A stretch of DNA of 64,000 bases from positions 1 through 64,000 of IMG/VR virus record IMGVR_UViG_3300042450_002433; one strand, given 5' to 3'. A program made the position numbers and the translations under genes. Of the stretch, positions 24,381 to 54,658 are shown piece by piece. Source of the stretch: a virus. Every line of letters starts with the position of its first letter. The first letter of the stretch is position 1. A model generated the notes under the pieces. The model was not told where the DNA came from. It worked only from the letters and a program-made list of their open reading frames with translations, and searched no databases.

Positions 24381-24920
24381 ATGCTAAAGCCACGCCTACT
24401 CAAATCTCTTATCGCACAAAACGCAGCCCTTCTTCGTGAACAGCAAGGACTGATGGAATATTTCCGCATCTTGGAGATCTCTCTTCATGTGATTGAAAAG
24501 ACAGGAAAAGATTCGGGTGTTGTTCAACTACAAGAACTTGCAAACATTCGTAAGGACATGCGGAAAATTCTCATTGCTCATCGCAATATGATTTTCAATA
24601 CCACAGGTGCTATTCGACCACCGACCAAGAAAGAACTTGGGATGTTGGCTGATCCTACCAAAAATTCACAGCACAAGTTTGTGGAGATCAACGAAGATCT
24701 TCAAAATCTACTCAATCAGTTGATGAACGATATCAGTAACTATCATCACTCAAAGGATGGCTTTGTGGATTTTGGGGAAGACACTCATGCAAGAGATGTT
24801 GAGGAAGATGAATCTGAATCTCATATCGACCCCGTTAATTTTGGTGGCGATCTAGAGGGAGAGTGGCAAGATTTTCCACCTCCTCCTGATGGGGATCCCT
24901 TTCGTGAAACAGGAGACTGA
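24381..24920 (+). CDS. Phage protein of unknown function (leaderless mRNA predicted)
   Basis: 179 residues. The first 120 residues are helical with heptad-like Leu spacing (LIAQNAALLREQQGLMEYF). The tail is very acidic (DVEEDESESHIDP) and ends in PPPPDGDPF. No Shine-Dalgarno; the -10 box ends 6 nt upstream. It overlaps the next start by 1 nt. Confidence 0.75.
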   Translation: MLKPRLLKSLIAQNAALLREQQGLMEYFRILEISLHVIEKTGKDSGVVQLQELANIRKDMRKILIAHRNMIFNTTGAIRPPTKKELGMLADPTKNSQHKFVEINEDLQNLLNQLMNDISNYHHSKDGFVDFGEDTHARDVEEDESESHIDPVNFGGDLEGEWQDFPPPPDGDPFRETGD

Positions 24921-25507
24921 TGGATAATCACACCACATATGATCTGACTGAAGCATCGCTTTCTCGATTGTATCAGCATACCGAAGAGCGCAATGTCGGA
25001 ATCATTTCCGCGTTTCGTGGTCGATACTCTAAGAGTGAAAACATGTCCCGCAGTGGTCAGTTAGAATCACAAATTCGCACAGGCGGCTTTGGATTCTATC
25101 GTCTCGAAGGACATTACATTGAGGGCTTTGGTTCTGAAAAATCAAAGGATGTCAAGGAGCGATCATACCTTGTTATCGGTAACAAAGGTTCTGATGGTGG
25201 TAACCTCAAGGGATTCTTGAAGAAGATGGGTGCCAAATTTAATCAGGACTCCGTTCTATATAAACCATTCGATAATAAAAATGCGTCCCTTATTGGAACA
25301 CAGGCAAAGGACGAGGAAGGGAATGATGTAGAATTTCCTGGTCTTGGAAAAGAAATTTCAGTTGGCGAATTCAAGCCAATGAAAATCAATCAATTCTATT
25401 CGCGAATGAAAGGCAAGCCATTTGTCTTTGAGTCGTATGCCGTACAGAAGACATGGATCGAATCGTATTCGCAATATATTCTTTCGAGACTTTCAAATCC
25501 GACTTGA
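24920..25507 (+). CDS. Conserved phage protein, possibly DUF3293-like
   Basis: 195 residues. IISAFRGRYS, then NMSRSGQLESQIRTGG, GFYRLEGHYIEGFGS and ERSYLVIGN follow the order of elements in DUF3293-type proteins (a strand with an N/S-rich turn, a short LExxI helix, a Gly-rich strand and an ExSYLV strand). I am not certain of the assignment and the function of that family is unknown. It is translationally coupled to the upstream gene. Confidence 0.7.
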   Translation: MDNHTTYDLTEASLSRLYQHTEERNVGIISAFRGRYSKSENMSRSGQLESQIRTGGFGFYRLEGHYIEGFGSEKSKDVKERSYLVIGNKGSDGGNLKGFLKKMGAKFNQDSVLYKPFDNKNASLIGTQAKDEEGNDVEFPGLGKEISVGEFKPMKINQFYSRMKGKPFVFESYAVQKTWIESYSQYILSRLSNPT

Positions 25508-26031: not shown

Positions 26032-26105
26032 GTCCTTGTAACTCAGTTGGATAGAGTAACAGATTTCTAATCTGTAGGTCGGTGGTTCGAGTCCACCCAA
26101 GGACG
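26032..26105 (+). tRNA. tRNA-Arg (TCT)
   Basis: Acceptor GTCCTTG/CAAGGAC, discriminator G, T-arm GGTGGTTCGAGTCCACC, anticodon stem ACAGA/TCTGT with loop TTTCTAA. The CCA end is not encoded. Reads AGA, a codon likely less favoured by the host. Confidence 0.93.
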
Positions 26106-26110
26106 CTTTC

Positions 26111-26183
26111 GCTCTTGTAGCGCAGTTGGTAGCGCAGTTGACTTTTAATCAATTGGTCGTGGGTTCGAGTCCCACCGAGAGCA
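26111..26183 (+). tRNA. tRNA-Lys (TTT)
   Basis: Acceptor GCTCTTG/CGAGAGC with one G-T pair, anticodon loop CTTTTAA, T-arm GTGGGTTCGAGTCCCAC. CCA not encoded. Confidence 0.93.
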
Positions 26184-26199
26184 TTCGATACTGTAGGAG

Positions 26200-26207
26200 A
26201 CTAAATA
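26200..26207 (+). promoter_or_regulatory. Late-type promoter octamer overlapping a start
   Basis: ACTAAATA ends on the A of ATG 26207. A transcript from it would start close to the second in-frame ATG at 26216, which gives the MKSF start. Confidence 0.5.
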
Positions 26208-26743
26208 TGGATGACATGAAATCATTCACGCATCATATCAAAGAAGCATCCCTTGGACAGATTTACTGTGACATGGATGGTGTTCTTGTAGACATCATTG
26301 GTGGCATCTCAAAGTTGTATAAGATTTCGGGATTGTCGAATAGAAATTTTGACAGTATCGTAGATCCACTTAAGTCTAAAATTGATAAAGAACATCCACA
26401 CCTATTTGCAGAACTTCCATGGACAGCAGATGGGAAAGTGTTGTGGAGATATATCTCCAAGCACAATCCAAACATCTTATCTGCACATACGAATACATGG
26501 CAACCTGACTCGAAGCAAGATAAGATTCGTTGGATCGACAAGCACCTCGATCCCAAACCCGCAATGAATCATATTGTTATACGAAGAGACAAGGAAAAAT
26601 TTGCTGTTGCAAATGGTGTGCCCAATATACTGATTGATGATTGGAAACTTAATATTGCTGAATGGACGAAAGCAGGTGGTATTGGAATCTTACATAAGAA
26701 TACCGCCGACACAATTGCTACTCTGAAAAAACTTGGTTATTAA
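26207..26743 (+). CDS. Putative capsid-targeted HAD-family phosphatase (5'-nucleotidase-like)
   Basis: 178 residues from 26207, or 175 from ATG 26216. YCDMDGVLVD is HAD motif I with the nucleophile and acid/base Asp pair; ILIDDWKLNI near residue 145 supplies motif IV Asp residues; SAHTNTW may provide motif II. Size and motifs match deoxyribonucleotidase-like phage proteins. MKSFTHHIKEASLG has IKE at 8-10 followed by A. AGGAG 7 nt before 26207 supports that start on a read-through message, while the late-type octamer and the conserved peptide support 26216. Substrate probably nucleotides. Confidence 0.8.
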   Translation: MDDMKSFTHHIKEASLGQIYCDMDGVLVDIIGGISKLYKISGLSNRNFDSIVDPLKSKIDKEHPHLFAELPWTADGKVLWRYISKHNPNILSAHTNTWQPDSKQDKIRWIDKHLDPKPAMNHIVIRRDKEKFAVANGVPNILIDDWKLNIAEWTKAGGIGILHKNTADTIATLKKLGY

Positions 26744-26749
26744 TATAAT

Positions 26750-26822
26750 GGCGAAGTAGTCCAAAGGCAGAGACAGTTGACTTAAAATCAACAAAGTGTG
26801 GGTTCGACTCCCACCTTCGTCA
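26750..26822 (+). tRNA. tRNA-Leu (TAA), short variable loop
   Basis: Acceptor GGCGAAG/CTTCGTC with one G-T pair, anticodon stem GTTGA/TCAAC with loop CTTAAAA giving TAA, T-arm GTGGGTTCGACTCCCAC. The variable loop is only about 5 nt, whereas bacterial and T4 tRNA-Leu have a long variable arm. Confidence 0.85.
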
Positions 26823-26841
26823 CTGAATGAAAGGAATTATT

Positions 26842-27466: not shown

Positions 27467-27832
27467 ATGAACATTATCACTACCCTACTCACCCTTCAGG
27501 CACAACTCAAAGTTCTCCATTGGCAGACCAAGTCATATGCCGAGCATAAGGCTTTGGGCAAGTTATATGAAAGTCTTGATGGTAGCATTGACACCTTTGT
27601 CGAGACCTTCTCAGGTCGCAATGGAGTTCCAACCGCCAAGGGTGATTACAAACTGACTGTGGCAAATTATAAAGATAACAATGGATGTGTTGCAATCATT
27701 GATAGTGCAATTGCATATATGATGAAGGATCTCCCAACAATCGTTAAGCCTGAGGATACTGATCTTTTGAATATTCGAGACGAGATGGTCGGTTCACTAA
27801 ACAGAACAAAGTATCTACTTCGTCTAAAATGA
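27467..27832 (+). CDS. Ferritin/Dps-like helical protein (DUF5856-like)
   Basis: 121 residues, all helical. LLTLQAQLKVLHWQTKSYAEH followed by a helix with LDGSIDTFVETFSG resembles helices A and B of Dps/ferritin-like proteins (the LHWxT...H pattern and an acidic second helix) and the DUF5856 family of T4-like phages. The full set of ferroxidase ligands is not evident, so iron storage is not implied. AAGGAC is a weak ribosome binding site. Confidence 0.75.
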   Translation: MNIITTLLTLQAQLKVLHWQTKSYAEHKALGKLYESLDGSIDTFVETFSGRNGVPTAKGDYKLTVANYKDNNGCVAIIDSAIAYMMKDLPTIVKPEDTDLLNIRDEMVGSLNRTKYLLRLK

Positions 27833-27834
27833 TC

Positions 27835-27862
27835 TTGACAAATCGGGAGAACATGATACAAT
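27835..27862 (+). promoter_or_regulatory. Sigma70-type promoter of the tmRNA
   Basis: TTGACA at 27835-27840, 16 nt spacer, TACAAT at 27857-27862, about 22 nt upstream of the mature tmRNA 5' end, leaving a short precursor for RNase P. Confidence 0.8.
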
Positions 27863-27884: not shown

Positions 27885-28237
27885 GGGGTCGAACAGGTAT
27901 CGAATGCATGAAGACTGATGTGTGATGCGCTAAGAGGAACCATGCTAGGCTCTTAAACTCGTATGGAAATAACAACTGCCAGATTTAATAAGAAGCAGTC
28001 ACGCCGTTTGGCTCTCGCAGCCTGACGCACTCGATCATCCGACTCCTTTAGGATGATTGGGTAAAACAAAGGATGGGTCTTTAGGAATGGGAGTGCCAAT
28101 AAAGACCGAGAATAAAGGCTCCAAATCTGATCCGCTAAGTCGCCATCAGCGGCGGGTCTGAATAAAGTGATGGATATTAGCGTAGTAGGCAGCACAGTAA
28201 GCATGACATCACGGGGGTTCGATTCCCCCCGACTCCA
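27885..28237 (+). ncRNA. ssrA: Transfer-messenger RNA (tmRNA)
   Basis: About 353 nt. The tRNA-like ends are GGGGTCG (27885-27891) and CGACTCC (28230-28236) with discriminator A, and a T-arm GGGGGTTCGATTCCCCCC, followed by no CCA. The tag frame ends at the TGA at 28023-28025 with RLALAA, the typical ALAA-type degradation signal. Read upstream in frame from 27963 it gives MEITTARFNKKQSRRLALAA; the exact resume codon (ATG, GAA or the codon before) cannot be fixed by eye. tmRNA with SmpB rescues stalled ribosomes and tags the peptide for host ClpXP. No smpB gene is present in the window, so host SmpB must be used. Confidence 0.93.
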
Positions 28238-28245
28238 TTAGGTAT

Positions 28246-28317
28246 GCGAATGTAACTCAGTGGTAGAGTCTCGGTTTTCCAAACCGATGGTCGTGGGTTC
28301 GAATCCCATCGTTCGCT
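28246..28317 (+). tRNA. tRNA-Gly (TCC)
   Basis: Acceptor GCGAATG/CGTTCGC with one T-G pair, anticodon loop TTTCCAA, T-arm GTGGGTTCGAATCCCAT. Starts 8 nt after the tmRNA, probably on the same transcript. CCA not encoded. Confidence 0.93.
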
Positions 28318-28339
28318 TTGTCTCTTGTCTCTGCACTAT

Positions 28340-28420
28340 AATTCCGAAGAACGGTTTTTGTGGAGTAAAGCAAATCCCCCGAATCGGCACGGGGTCATGA
28401 GAGACTTGCCGTTCGTAGCG
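28340..28420 (+). other. Unassigned structured element in the tRNA cluster
   Basis: GAACGG at 28349-28354 pairs with CCGTTC at 28409-28414, enclosing CCCCCG...CGGGG. It sits in a 149 nt gap between tRNA-Gly and tRNA-Asn and shows no ORF. It does not fold as a tRNA by eye. Possibly a small RNA or a decayed tRNA. Confidence 0.35.
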
Positions 28421-28466
28421 TTTTGATGTGGTCGTATTATGGTAATTAGAAATCTGCATCACATTT

Positions 28467-28538
28467 TGGTTCGTAGCACAATGGCAGTGCATCCCGCTGT
28501 TAACGGGACGGCTGAAGGTTCGAGTCCTTCCGAACCAG
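28467..28538 (+). tRNA. tRNA-Asn (GTT)
   Basis: Acceptor TGGTTCG/CGAACCA, anticodon stem CCCG/CGGG with loop CTGTTAA, T-arm GAAGGTTCGAGTCCTTC. CCA not encoded. Confidence 0.93.
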
Positions 28539-28542
28539 TTTT

Positions 28543-28624
28543 GGGAGAATACTCAAGCGGTCAACGAGGTTTGACTGTAAATCAAATGGCATTGCCTTCG
28601 GGGGTTCGAATCCCTCTTCTCCCA
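28543..28624 (+). tRNA. tRNA-Tyr (GTA)
   Basis: Acceptor GGGAGAA/TTCTCCC, anticodon loop CTGTAAA, a class II variable arm of about 14 nt as expected for tRNA-Tyr, T-arm GGGGTTCGAATCCCT. Confidence 0.93.
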
Positions 28625-28629
28625 TTCCC

Positions 28630-28701
28630 GCCATCTTAGCACAGAGGTAGTGCAGTTCACTTGTAATGAACAGGTCATCGGTTCAAATCCGATAGATGGC
28701 T
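28630..28701 (+). tRNA. tRNA-Thr (TGT)
   Basis: Acceptor GCCATCT/AGATGGC, anticodon stem GTTCA/TGAAC with loop CTTGTAA, T-arm ATCGGTTCAAATCCGAT. Confidence 0.93.
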
Positions 28702-37433: not shown

Positions 37434-38431
37434 GTGACTTTTCTCCCTTTGGGCGTAATATGTTTGGTGAGAACATTGAAGAGGAAACTCAATCAAAGGT
37501 TGCTCGTAAGTTTATTGTGCCCCCATTCACCATCCTGTCTGCACGGGATGGTTCTTGGCAGAAGAGGAAGAAGGCATGGCTCAAGCGAGGAATCAAAGGG
37601 GAACTTGGCAGGGGCGATAAACTTCTCTATGGTGACAAAGTAGACTCTATTGACTACTATCGTCAGAAGGAAGGGGAGGTGGTTGACTCCATCGAAAGCA
37701 ACACATCGGTATTTGATCCCGTGTTGTGTGAGTTGGCGTATCGGTGGTTCACCAAAGAAGGCGATCAGGTTGTCGATCCCTTTGCGGGTGGAATGGTTCG
37801 TGGTGTTGTTGCCTCTTATCTCAATCGAAGATATTGGGGTTGTGACTTAAGTCAACCACAAATTAAATCTAATCAGGAACAGGCTTCGCTACTAGAAGAA
37901 CTCAGTGCTCCGATTGTTTGGGTGAACGGAGATTCCGAGAGGGAATTGAAATTAAGCCCCGATTCTGATTTCATTTTTAGTTGTCCTCCCTATGGAGATC
38001 TCGAACAGTATTCAGAAGATCCACGCGATTTGTCTGCAATGAACAATGATTCATTCCTGACTGCATATAAGAATATCATTCGTCTTGCATGTGATCGTTT
38101 ACGAATGAATCGGTTTGCCTGTTTCGTGGTAGGAGATTACCGTTGCCCCAAGGGATTTTATCGAAACTTTGTTGGACAAACAGTAAGTGCATTCGAGGAT
38201 GCAGGAGTACGCTTCTACAATGAGGCTATCCTTGCTACTCCTGTTGCCTCTGCTGCGATGCGAGTAACACAACAGTTTGAAGCATCAAGAAAGTTTGCAA
38301 AAACTCATCAGAATGTTCTTGTGTTTTGCAAGGGTGATCCTAAACTAGCAACTCAAAGAATCTCACAGAAACACATTGAAGAATCGGTTGCTGAACATGC
38401 ACAATCAAGCCTGACGGATATTATGAAATGA
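37430..38431 (+). CDS. DNA methyltransferase (N4/N6 amino type)
   Basis: 333 residues. Motif IV is SCPPYGDL and motif I VVDPFAGGMVRG follows the order X-I-...-IV found in beta/N4-N6 amino methyltransferases; DLSQPQI supplies the acidic residue that binds AdoMet. RYWGCDLS and the ending HQNVLVFCKGD match phage methylases annotated as DNA modification methylase. No cognate endonuclease is adjacent. Together with the Mom-like gene downstream it could modify phage DNA against restriction. Confidence 0.88.
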   Translation: MSDFSPFGRNMFGENIEEETQSKVARKFIVPPFTILSARDGSWQKRKKAWLKRGIKGELGRGDKLLYGDKVDSIDYYRQKEGEVVDSIESNTSVFDPVLCELAYRWFTKEGDQVVDPFAGGMVRGVVASYLNRRYWGCDLSQPQIKSNQEQASLLEELSAPIVWVNGDSERELKLSPDSDFIFSCPPYGDLEQYSEDPRDLSAMNNDSFLTAYKNIIRLACDRLRMNRFACFVVGDYRCPKGFYRNFVGQTVSAFEDAGVRFYNEAILATPVASAAMRVTQQFEASRKFAKTHQNVLVFCKGDPKLATQRISQKHIEESVAEHAQSSLTDIMK

Positions 38432-39354
38432 GTAAGCGATCTGCCATCGATATCATTGAACGCGCTAAGAACTATGACAAAGATCATTGTTGGCAGTATG
38501 ACATTCGGGTCAACAACCTCCAAGAGGATATTGTCGAGAGTGGGATCGACCCTGAGCAGATCAACTCTATTAAAGTAACTGATATCTATTTTAAGCCTTT
38601 GACAGGATACCTAGAGCGGCAAGACGCTACGGAATTCATTCAGCGACATGAATGGCTAGGAAATCTGTCTCAGTACACAACACATTGGTTTGGTGCATTC
38701 TATCATGATCCCAATCAGGGGCTGATGGGCAGAGAAATCATGGTGGGAGTTATCCTTATGAATATGCCTAATGCATTTTCAAAATTGCTAGGAGATGATA
38801 CCCAAACCATTGAGCGACTTATCAGTCGCGGTGCTTGTATTTCATGGAGTCCAAAGAATCTTGCGAGTTCTTTTCTCATGTGGACAATCCAATGGATGGT
38901 AAAGAACACCCCATATAGATTGTTTACTGCCTACTCCGATCCAACTGCGAAGGAAATCGGTACCATCTATCAGGCTTGCAACTTCTATTACTTGGGCAAG
39001 AAGTCGGGAACAACTACTCGATATATCAATCCATACACGGGCAGAATTGTGTCTGACCGCTTCTTTAGAGTTCGCAGTGCATATAAGAAGTATGCCAAGG
39101 AACTTGGAATTGCATGGGACAAGAGTTGGAGTAATGATCAAAAAATGCTATGGGAAAATATGTCTCCTGTCATCGAACAGATGCTTCGAGACTTTAGCAA
39201 GAAAAAACAATCTCAATCAGTTCCAGTTGACTTTCCATCAAAACACAAGTATGCTTATGTACTTGGTGCTACCAAAGCAGAAACCAAAAAACTTCGGAAG
39301 AAGTTTGTAGAGAGAAACAAAACGCCCGAATATCCAAAGCAAAGAGGCACATGA
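38428..39354 (+). CDS. Mom-like GNAT-family DNA modification protein
   Basis: 308 residues. FIQRHEWLGNL, THWFGAFY and then IMVGVILMNMP, ISRGACISWSPKNLASSFLM and LFTAYSDPTAKEIGTIYQACN follow the arrangement of Mom-type GNAT proteins (phage Mu Mom converts adenine in DNA to a carbamoylmethyl derivative). The C-terminal third is basic (KKFVERNKTPEYPKQRG), suited to DNA binding. Its position between the methyltransferase and the polymerase supports a role in DNA hypermodification. The exact product is unknown. Confidence 0.82.
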   Translation: MSKRSAIDIIERAKNYDKDHCWQYDIRVNNLQEDIVESGIDPEQINSIKVTDIYFKPLTGYLERQDATEFIQRHEWLGNLSQYTTHWFGAFYHDPNQGLMGREIMVGVILMNMPNAFSKLLGDDTQTIERLISRGACISWSPKNLASSFLMWTIQWMVKNTPYRLFTAYSDPTAKEIGTIYQACNFYYLGKKSGTTTRYINPYTGRIVSDRFFRVRSAYKKYAKELGIAWDKSWSNDQKMLWENMSPVIEQMLRDFSKKKQSQSVPVDFPSKHKYAYVLGATKAETKKLRKKFVERNKTPEYPKQRGT

Positions 39355-47304: not shown

Positions 47305-47658
47305 ATGAACACCCAATCAATCGCAAACGAAATCGAAAACAAAATCATCGAGAAGGTTCGTGAGACCCTTTCCAAAAGAACTCTCCCCGATCTCCCCGAC
47401 AACTTGGTCGCCACAGACAACATGGGTGAGGTGATCGAGAAACTGTGCATCCTCCATATCCGCACATGGCTGCTAGAGGACATGGTTGGTGTCGCCAAGA
47501 CCGATGAAGAGGTTGCCGCCCTCAAGCGCAAGATCGACATCTGTTTCAAGCAGAAGCGTCCTCAGTACATTCAGGCAATCAACCGCATGATCGATGAGTC
47601 AATCGTGAAGGGCAAGAGCCTCGTTGAGGATTCCGTCAAGATCTACAGGGGGAACTGA
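47305..47658 (+). CDS. Small helical protein, possibly DUF4254-like
   Basis: 117 residues, all helical. NMGEVIEKLCILHIRTWLLED and KTDEEVAALKRKIDICFKQK suggest the DUF4254 family found in polysaccharide clusters. AAAGGA 8 nt upstream of 47305 decides the start; ATG 47296 overlaps the previous stop. It lies wholly in the G/C-richer patch. Confidence 0.7.
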   Translation: MNTQSIANEIENKIIEKVRETLSKRTLPDLPDNLVATDNMGEVIEKLCILHIRTWLLEDMVGVAKTDEEVAALKRKIDICFKQKRPQYIQAINRMIDESIVKGKSLVEDSVKIYRGN

Positions 47659-47662
47659 ATCG

Positions 47663-48838
47663 ATGAAGCAGCCAATCACCTTGGTTGGGGACACGATTGG
47701 TCAGGACGATATCTCGTCTCTGATTGCATGGCTACACACCAATCCCCGCCTGACTAAAGGGATCAACACAGTCGAGTTTGAACAGGAATGGAGTCATTGG
47801 CTTGGCTGCAAGTATTCCGTCTTCGTCAACTCAGGCTCTTCGGCTAACCTAGCGATCTTCTACGGTCTCATTCTTTCGAACAGGCTGAAGAACAAGAAGG
47901 TTGTGTTCCCATGCCTGTCTTGGGTCACTACCGTTGCACCAGCCATTCAATTAGGTCTTGAGCCAATCCTCTGCGATTCGGATAGCAATCTAGGAATCGA
48001 CACCGAGAAGTTCGAGGAGATCTGCAAGCGAGACAACCCTGCCGCCCTGATGGTTGTGCATGCATTAGGCTTTCCCAACGACATGAAGCGGCTACAGGAG
48101 ATCTGCACCAAGTACGGTGTCATCCTGTTGGAGGACTCGTGCGAGAGCGTGGGTACGACCGTGTGTGGGAAGAAGACTGGTGCCATCGGTTTGGCTTCAT
48201 CGTTCAGCACCTATTATGGTCACCACTTCTCCACGATTGAGGGTGGCTTCATCTGCACGGATGACTATGAGTTGTACAGCATCTTTAAGAGCATTCGCTC
48301 TCATGGTTGGTCTAGAGATTTAGATGAGGTATCCCGAAAAAATCTACAACTAAAATATGGCATAGATGACTTTAGAAACTTATACACATTCTATTATCCT
48401 GGATTCAATCTGCGATCCACAGATCTACAAGCATATATCGGAAGATTGCAACTTAAAAAACTTGACAGATTTTGCAATACTCGTTGGGAGAATCTAAAGT
48501 TATATGATAGTCTAATTGTGAATGATGAGTGGAAAATAGATATTAGCAAATTTGAATTTGTTTCCAATTTTGCATATCCAATCATCCATTCTCATTCATC
48601 CGAGATTGTCAATCTATTGACAAGTAATCTTGTGGAATGTAGACCTCTTATTGCAGGAAATATATACCGTCAACCATTCTTTTATGAAAAATTTGGAAAT
48701 CCTCTTTTTGAATATCCATTTGCAGACAGAATCCATGATCACGGGATATACCTTCCAAATAACGCAGATATTACCAAGGAAGATATTCATTTAACATGTT
48801 CTATCATAAACTCTATCACAACAAATCACAAGCAATAA
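47663..48838 (+). CDS. DegT-type PLP enzyme with catalytic His (sugar 3-dehydratase-like)
   Basis: 391 residues, DegT/DnrJ/EryC1/StrS family: NSGSSANLAIFY (cofactor phosphate), PCLSWVTTVAPA, VLLEDSCES (Asp for the pyridine nitrogen), then SSFSTYYGHHFSTIEGGF. In aminotransferases this last motif has Lys; here it reads GHH, as in ColD and DdhC-type 3-dehydratases that use His to make 3-deoxy sugars. It would act on an NDP-4-keto-6-deoxy-hexose. The G/C-richer patch ends inside this gene at about 48315. The start at 47663 was chosen; an upstream in-frame start at 47624 lies in the previous gene. Confidence 0.85.
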   Translation: MKQPITLVGDTIGQDDISSLIAWLHTNPRLTKGINTVEFEQEWSHWLGCKYSVFVNSGSSANLAIFYGLILSNRLKNKKVVFPCLSWVTTVAPAIQLGLEPILCDSDSNLGIDTEKFEEICKRDNPAALMVVHALGFPNDMKRLQEICTKYGVILLEDSCESVGTTVCGKKTGAIGLASSFSTYYGHHFSTIEGGFICTDDYELYSIFKSIRSHGWSRDLDEVSRKNLQLKYGIDDFRNLYTFYYPGFNLRSTDLQAYIGRLQLKKLDRFCNTRWENLKLYDSLIVNDEWKIDISKFEFVSNFAYPIIHSHSSEIVNLLTSNLVECRPLIAGNIYRQPFFYEKFGNPLFEYPFADRIHDHGIYLPNNADITKEDIHLTCSIINSITTNHKQ

Positions 48839-53764: not shown

Positions 53765-54658
53765 ATGAAACTCATTGTGACGGGTGGAAGAGGATTTATT
53801 GGCAGTCATTTTGTCGAGTTGGCACTTAAAAATGGTGACTCTATTATCGACTATGACTGCATGACATATTGTGCAAATGAAGTTTTGCCATTTGATGACA
53901 ATCCAAACTACAAGCATGTATCGGAAAACATCTGCGATATCACACATCTCCCATCATGTGATGTGTTGATCAATTTTGCTGCTGAGACTCATGTAGACAA
54001 CTCCATCAATGACACAACACCATTCTTGAAAAGTAATGTTGTTGGTGTTCACAATCTACTTGAGATTCTTCGTGGCAAGCCGAGCCATGAGAGACCGCTG
54101 TTTGTTCAGATCAGCACCGATGAGGTTTACGGAGACCGATCTGAGGGCGCATTCCAAGAGTCTGATAAACTGACTCCAAGTAATCCTTACTCTGCATCGA
54201 AGGCTGCTGCTGAGATGTTTGTCTTGGGCTATCATCGAACATATGGTATGAATTATTTAATCACTCGTAGTTCAAATAATTATGGAGAACGACAGTATTC
54301 TGAAAAACTGATTCCCAAGAGCCTCGAATGCATTCATACCAACAAGAAGATTCCGCTTCATGGAGATGGCTCTTATGTGCGAGATTGGATCTATGTAAAG
54401 GACAATGTGTCTGCAATTTACACACTCATTCAGGGTGGCGCAAAGAACGATGTCTTCAACATTGGCGCAAACAACCACATGACCAATTTAGAAGTTGCCC
54501 TTGACCTACTAGAGTCTTTCGGAAAGGGGAAAGAAGGAATACAGTTTGTTGACAATAGATGGGGACAGGATCTTAGATATTCTCTCAGCACAGACAAGAT
54601 TAATAAGTTTGGGTGGACTGCAAAGCAAACAAAAGGACTATTCAAATGGTGGAATTAA
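53765..54658 (+). CDS. rmlB: dTDP-glucose 4,6-dehydratase
   Basis: 297 residues, shorter than usual RmlB (about 340-360). TGGRGFIGSHFVELAL at the start, AAETHVDNSINDT, ISTDEVYGD with the catalytic DE, YSASKAAAEM (YxxxK), SSNNYGERQYSEKLIP and VRDWIYVKDN. It makes dTDP-4-keto-6-deoxyglucose, the precursor for rhamnose or other deoxysugars. The truncation is in the C-terminal part, which ends FKWWN. Confidence 0.93.
   Translation: MKLIVTGGRGFIGSHFVELALKNGDSIIDYDCMTYCANEVLPFDDNPNYKHVSENICDITHLPSCDVLINFAAETHVDNSINDTTPFLKSNVVGVHNLLEILRGKPSHERPLFVQISTDEVYGDRSEGAFQESDKLTPSNPYSASKAAAEMFVLGYHRTYGMNYLITRSSNNYGERQYSEKLIPKSLECIHTNKKIPLHGDGSYVRDWIYVKDNVSAIYTLIQGGAKNDVFNIGANNHMTNLEVALDLLESFGKGKEGIQFVDNRWGQDLRYSLSTDKINKFGWTAKQTKGLFKWWN

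Follow-up and report, generated by a model that had tools for sequence, protein, structure and literature searches.

A predicted one-piece tmRNA with a basic tag encoded by an uncultured T4-like phage

The stretch of DNA analyzed here (the window, 64,000 nt, positions 1 to 64,000 of the IMG/VR virus record IMGVR_UViG_3300042450_002433) raises the question of whether a phage carries a working tmRNA gene of its own, and what the basic character of the encoded tag would mean. A first-pass annotation had proposed a complete phage tmRNA with tRNA-like ends and a T-arm, and this was corroborated by ARAGORN, which predicted a complete one-piece tmRNA of 353 nt with the same ends, and by Rfam. The covariance-model search, which had been suggested as a check, yielded a match to RF00023 at 27885-28240 with 95.3 bits (E 6.7e-36; gathering score 47) that covered positions 1-374 of the 374 positions of the model, i.e., its full length. 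The gene type was standard and not permuted; in two-piece tmRNAs, the 3′ part is encoded upstream of the 5′ part. At the 3′ end, the discriminator base is A, CCA is not encoded, and the next bases are TTA. ARAGORN called 10 RNA genes within the window, including the tmRNA, which lies among seven close tRNA genes. The neighborhood comprises the following features:

26032..26823, plus strand: tRNA-Arg(tct), tRNA-Lys(ttt), and tRNA-Leu(taa), upstream of the tmRNA (ARAGORN), with a gene for a 5′-deoxyribonucleotidase in between
27467..27832, plus strand: gene for a DUF5856 protein ("starvation-inducible transcriptional regulator"; phrog_858, PF19174), just upstream of the tmRNA
27835..27862, plus strand: predicted sigma-70-type promoter TTGACA-16-TACAAT with extended −10 TG (11 of 12 matches), ending 22 nt before the 5′ end of the RNA
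27885..28237, plus strand: one-piece tmRNA (ssrA) gene (ARAGORN, Rfam RF00023, acceptor check)
28246..28701, plus strand: tRNA-Gly(tcc), tRNA-Asn(gtt), tRNA-Tyr(gta), and tRNA-Thr(tgt), directly downstream of the tmRNA (ARAGORN)

The tmRNA is phage-encoded and does not belong to a host chromosome, as it sits in a virus genome together with phage replication and structural genes. The window is part of a record of 147,569 bp that contains genes for a T4-like DNA polymerase, UvsX, gp45, gp44, UvsW, and gp5, as well as for a DnaB-type helicase and a B12-dependent ribonucleotide reductase. The encoded proteins point to a Kyanoviridae-like (T4-like) phage, and the closest isolates by UvsX were the Melnitz phages (61% identity) and Pelagibacter phage HTVC008M (60%). 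Searches of the phage record that detected the positive controls found neither SmpB nor SspB. In the absence of a phage SmpB, the tmRNA would have to use the SmpB of the host, and handling of tagged chains by a phage-encoded SspB was rejected.

Next, the secondary structure was analyzed. The pseudoknots are not included in the Rfam model, and therefore, PK1-PK4 were tested on a hand-written structure that was derived from the window sequence and scored on an alignment of 8 phage homologues. It contains the acceptor stem, three segments of helix 2, PK1-PK4, helix 5, and the T-arm. The elements with assigned positions are, in order:

27885..27891, plus strand: 5′ strand of the acceptor stem, GGGGTCG (helix 1; acceptor check), with a third pair G-U, the alanine identity element
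27933..27966, plus strand: pseudoknot 1, AGAG/CTCT and CCATGC/GTATGG (helices 5 and 6 in the count of the structure; 100% paired, with compensatory changes)
27978..28025, plus strand: tag frame GCC...TGA, encoding ARFNKKQSRRLALAA and the stop (ARAGORN; sequence)
28006..28026, plus strand: helix 5, made up of the tag frame's 3′ portion together with its stop codon (helix 7 in the count)
28035..28073, plus strand: pseudoknot 2, TCATCC/GGATGA and TCCTTT/AAAGGA (helices 8 and 9 in the count)
28076..28122, plus strand: pseudoknot 3, GGTCTTTA/TAAAGACC and GGAG/CTCC (helices 10 and 11 in the count)
28132..28173, plus strand: pseudoknot 4, CCGCT/AGCGG and CCATC/GATGG (helices 12 and 13 in the count)
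28213..28229, plus strand: T-arm GGGGG-TTCGATT-CCCCC (Rfam match, structure count)
28230..28236, plus strand: 3′ strand of the acceptor stem, CGACTCC (structure, acceptor check)

The pseudoknots and the tag region, on whose alignment the first-pass annotation had staked the identification, could be aligned in the 8 phage homologues, the distinct lineages of which are about 72-77% identical to one another. Pairing was possible in 95.9% of the cells, a percentage for which the control with a slid structure is biased, because one of the aligned sequences had supplied the structure. Changes on both sides were found in 25 of 77 pairs. The covariation score was 0.342 versus 0.159 (sd 0.012) in shuffles, and none of 500 shuffles scored as high, although the relatedness of the sequences inflates this test; when the structure was slid, the score was 0.055-0.078. 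The compensatory changes were located in helix 2, in all four pseudoknots, and in helix 5. Their occurrence in each pseudoknot is independent of the origin of the structure, and thus, the support for PK1-PK4 stands despite the favored slide control. Like PK1-PK4, the acceptor stem covaries or is conserved among the homologues. The weakest helices were stem 2 of PK3 (81.3% paired) and helix 5 (82.8%). The G3-U70 pair was present in all 12 ARAGORN-called tmRNAs of the clade, and none of the 12 encoded CCA, nor did any of the phage's own tRNA genes.

The promoter that had been noticed in front of the gene was recovered at the position given above. Matches to TTGACA-N15-19-TANAAT were seen twice in 64 kb versus 0.36 expected, so that the count alone is only mild evidence. 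Relatives were gathered by scans of IMG/VR with two queries, the phage's DNA polymerase and its DUF5856 protein. A promoter precedes the tmRNA also in the near-identical phage L091, in L093 (TTGACA-17-TAGACT, at the same distance from the tmRNA as in the window), and in L190 (perfect consensus, 78 nt upstream). Among the relatives checked, no promoter was found in front of the tmRNA in L092, L183, L095, and L106, where the tmRNA probably depends on read-through.

The relatives contained divergent tmRNAs, which either adjoin the same DUF5856 gene or lie within about 3 kb of it. In total, a tmRNA above the Rfam cut-off was found in 19 of the 50 viral records searched. Many of the relatives presumably stem from lake metagenomes, and the phage group is called freshwater here because of this reading of their record identifiers.

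Two further claims of the annotation concerned the tag, namely, that its frame ends with RLALAA and a stop, and that it is basic upstream of ALAA. Both held: ARAGORN placed the coding part at positions 94-141 of the gene, and the encoded tag ARFNKKQSRRLALAA has a net charge of +5, a basic character that is common to the related phages. The resume codon GCC is found 11 nt after PK1, with an A at −4. Both features agree with the resume rules of E. coli, namely, a resume codon about 12 nt after PK1 and A at −4 (PMC2481249). The tag also has a degron-like hydrophobic end.

Comparison of tags within the clade yielded a uniform picture. ARAGORN predicted the one-piece tags ARFNKKQSRRLALAA, AKFNKKQSRRLALAA, AKFNVQPRQRLALAA, ANKQPYRLALAA, ANKQTRRYALAA, ANKKRRFVYAKPAARQRRLALAA, ANNKSRFVYAKPVARQRRLALAA, and ANTQYRLAA, and a ninth tag, ANRRLALAA, was read by eye from L173-L175, where ARAGORN called none. 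The nine distinct tags contain 35 K/R (26%) and not a single D/E in 133 residues, and their net charges range from +1 to +8. All nine end with LAA, and eight of them with ALAA. The tag frame has been kept across the lineages despite lengths of 9-23 aa; the ALAA codons of L092 differ from those of L183 by three synonymous changes and no replacement. Two other sets served for comparison. The first contained 53 tags from a bacterial phylum sample that we call Chloroflexota-like because it contains a Chloroflexus-type tag; they have 7% K/R and 3% D/E and net charges of −2 to +2 (average +0.4). The second contained twelve other tags, namely, eleven tags from viral contigs and that of Melnitz, with 2% K/R, 13% D/E, and an average net charge of −1.1. 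Rank tests of the clade tags versus the other sets gave P values of 3e-6 and 6e-5, which are descriptive only, as the tags are related by descent. A basic tag thus characterizes this phage group and not phage tmRNAs as a whole.

Most likely, this T4-like freshwater phage has a working one-piece tmRNA gene, the product of which performs ordinary trans-translation with the machinery of the host. This is the best explanation because the gene is full length, the structure covaries, the tag frame ending with LAA is conserved, a promoter is present, and the phage has neither SmpB nor SspB. The RNA would be transcribed from its own promoter, or by read-through with the neighboring genes, and would undergo processing along with the phage tRNAs around it. 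A host enzyme would add CCA, and the host AlaRS would charge the RNA via G3-U70. Cleavage of mRNA by a T4-like phage or by an RNase of the host would make truncated messages frequent, and host SmpB would bring the tmRNA to the ribosomes stalled on them. Translation would switch to the GCC resume codon, add ARFNKKQSRRLALAA, and terminate at the internal stop; the first alanine of the tag would come from the resume codon and follow the alanine with which the tmRNA had been charged. The ribosome would be recycled, and the tagged chain would be degraded, most likely by host ClpXP reading the LALAA end. The phage would benefit from the recycling of ribosomes by an extra tmRNA, and together with the phage tRNA genes, the tmRNA would fit a translation-support module; an added benefit over the tmRNA of the host is only assumed. 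Two observations speak against a functional gene, i.e., that no promoter was found in several relatives and that L190 and L174/L175 have a G at −4 of the resume codon, where A is nearly invariant. In E. coli, a change from A to G at this position works poorly.

The origin of the basic tag has to be considered separately. The gene might have been taken from the present host, or from an earlier one, and might simply have kept the type of tag found there; the phage copy would then be an extra dose of a host function, and its tag would have no special effect. This is compatible with ordinary trans-translation, and we regard it as a serious possibility, although one to which we give somewhat less than an even chance. 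The R-LALAA style of the window tag is closest to Chloroflexus-type tags, and the Chloroflexota-like sample contained several tags of similar style with an R-LALAA end (ANTNTRAQARLALAA, ANNNTRVQPRLALAA) and many without acidic residues; in addition, the tags of the other phages analyzed here resemble bacterial ones. The Chloroflexus-type bacterial tmRNA with the tag ANTNTRAQARLALAA shares with the window RNA the one-piece form, the R-LALAA end, and the AACTGCC resume context. However, its acceptor stem is GGGGATG versus GGGGTCG in the window, and the window RNA differs by the lack of an encoded CCA, by a far more basic tag, and by the lack of close sequence similarity. None of the 53 Chloroflexota-like tags exceeded +2, and among the bacterial tmRNAs fetched from two bacterial groups, no close match to the window tmRNA was found. 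A scan of genome contigs for R-[L/F]-ALAA tags was dominated by ANDERFALAA of Burkholderiales and yielded one other tag, ANNNTRVQAPRLALAA. Searches for evidence of the host did not provide a link either, as neither psbA nor another photosystem gene was found in the phage, and no close relative of the phage DNA polymerase was present in 400 genomes of the Chloroflexota-like phylum or in 399 genomes of a Burkholderiales-type order. One contig of the Chloroflexota-like sample (L438; genome G149, contig C7) encodes a full-length T4-like DNA polymerase with 35% identity and may be phage DNA that was binned with this genome; the stretch fetched contained no tmRNA.

Alternatively, the phage tmRNA could compete with that of the host, and its basic tag could bypass adaptors such as SspB, so that the breakdown of tagged chains is slowed or otherwise altered in a way that benefits the phage. 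The charge difference between the clade tags and the other viral tags is in favor of this view. In E. coli, SspB recognizes AANDENY in the upstream part of the tag, and the basic part of the phage tag would be unlikely to bind it. Furthermore, ClpX grips charged side chains only weakly (PMC6677533), which would, if anything, weaken the unfolding of tightly folded substrates. However, the recognition complex of ClpX contacts five tag residues (PMC7652416), and these are LALAA or similar in 8 of the 9 tags, which are thus still degron-like; from the resemblance of the last five residues of the window tag, LALAA, to a normal degron, degradation by ClpXP would be expected. In addition, the clade tags share descent and cannot be counted as independent. 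We therefore consider altered proteolysis unlikely, and equally doubtful is the wider proposal that freshwater Kyanoviridae-like phages evolved basic, acid-free tags that redirect rescued chains from the adaptor and protease route of the host while rescue is kept. If the basic tag were functional in this way, a virus would change the fate of tagged proteins with ribosome rescue intact, which makes it a testable case.

A decoy RNA that titrates SmpB or AlaRS, and thereby blocks host trans-translation, has a suggested precedent in the TLD-only RNA of mycobacteriophage DS6A (PMC4131195). In the window RNA, the tag frame is intact and helix 5 and PK2-PK4 are retained, none of which a decoy would need, and in view of the covariation and the intact frame, this very improbable reading was rejected. 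The ssrA gene is a common prophage integration site. This fact, which is discussed in PMC9004378, would fit a host ssrA of which the phage carries a relic without function or a fragment from integration (att). This explanation is barely credible and was also rejected due to the covariation and the intact tag frame, as the gene is full length, has compensatory changes and its own promoter, is part of a tRNA cluster in a T4-like genome, and has been retained by many relatives.

The case of ordinary trans-translation can be compared with known phage tmRNAs. The first-pass annotation had called tmRNA rare in phages. It is indeed uncommon, with 402 cases in 18,146 genomes or about 2.3% of the phages sequenced by 2021 (PMC9004378), but several well-known groups carry one, and established examples are mycobacteriophages, including Bxz1 and Wildcat, and Bacillus phage G (PMC4131195). 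These phages and their hosts are unrelated to the present case. The Streptomyces phages Faust and MulchMansion and Enterococcus phages (Schiekvirus) also have a one-piece tmRNA, in their cases in annotated isolate genomes. Their match to relatives of the window RNA is limited to about 30 bases in the region of the T-arm and acceptor, and the tags, ANSKNASAYALAA, ANSKFAFALAA (+1), and AKNEELLAVA (−1), are weakly charged (+1 to −1), unlike that of the window. A blastn search of isolate phages with the window tmRNA region gave matches only to tRNA-type sequences at the neighboring tRNA-Gly, and megablast of 24 kb gave no match.

The most similar case is Melnitz (Methylophilales phage, MZ577097, Kyanoviridae), a T4-like relative that also encodes a tmRNA. 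About 40 genes of the window phage match Melnitz by tblastn (48 ORFs were listed, some of them opposite-strand duplicates). However, the Melnitz tmRNA is a permuted two-piece RNA with the tag ANDNYVPVDYALAA beside the late-transcription coactivator gene, whereas that of the window is a one-piece RNA with a basic tag in a tRNA cluster beside the DUF5856 gene. A single viral family thus contains tmRNAs of both forms, one-piece and two-piece, and the two were probably acquired separately. The present case adds an uncultured freshwater phage group to the phages that bring their own ribosome-rescue RNA. Phage tmRNAs were already known, and a modest new element, as judged from the predicted tags, is the clade-wide basic tag free of acidic residues.

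Several additional observations were made. In L125 (240-667) and L121 (1871-2186), two relatives that have the same DUF5856 gene, permuted two-piece tmRNAs were predicted, with the short tags ANRMAMAA and AAPMRMAA, which are also devoid of acidic residues; the Rfam match of the L125 contig was below the cut-off (33 bits). About 3 kb past the tmRNA, a gene for a trypsin-like serine protease (PF13365; 31377-32093, plus strand) separates tRNA-Glu from the sliding clamp gene. The window also encodes a Mom-like DNA modification protein (38428-39354, plus strand) and an S-adenosylmethionine lyase-like protein (24920-25507, plus strand), which in other phages are anti-restriction types. Lastly, two sugar-nucleotide genes (47624-48838 and 53765-54658, both on the plus strand) encode a DegT/DnrJ aminotransferase and a GDP-mannose dehydratase-like epimerase, respectively, and perhaps serve to modify components of the phage or a sugar on the host surface.
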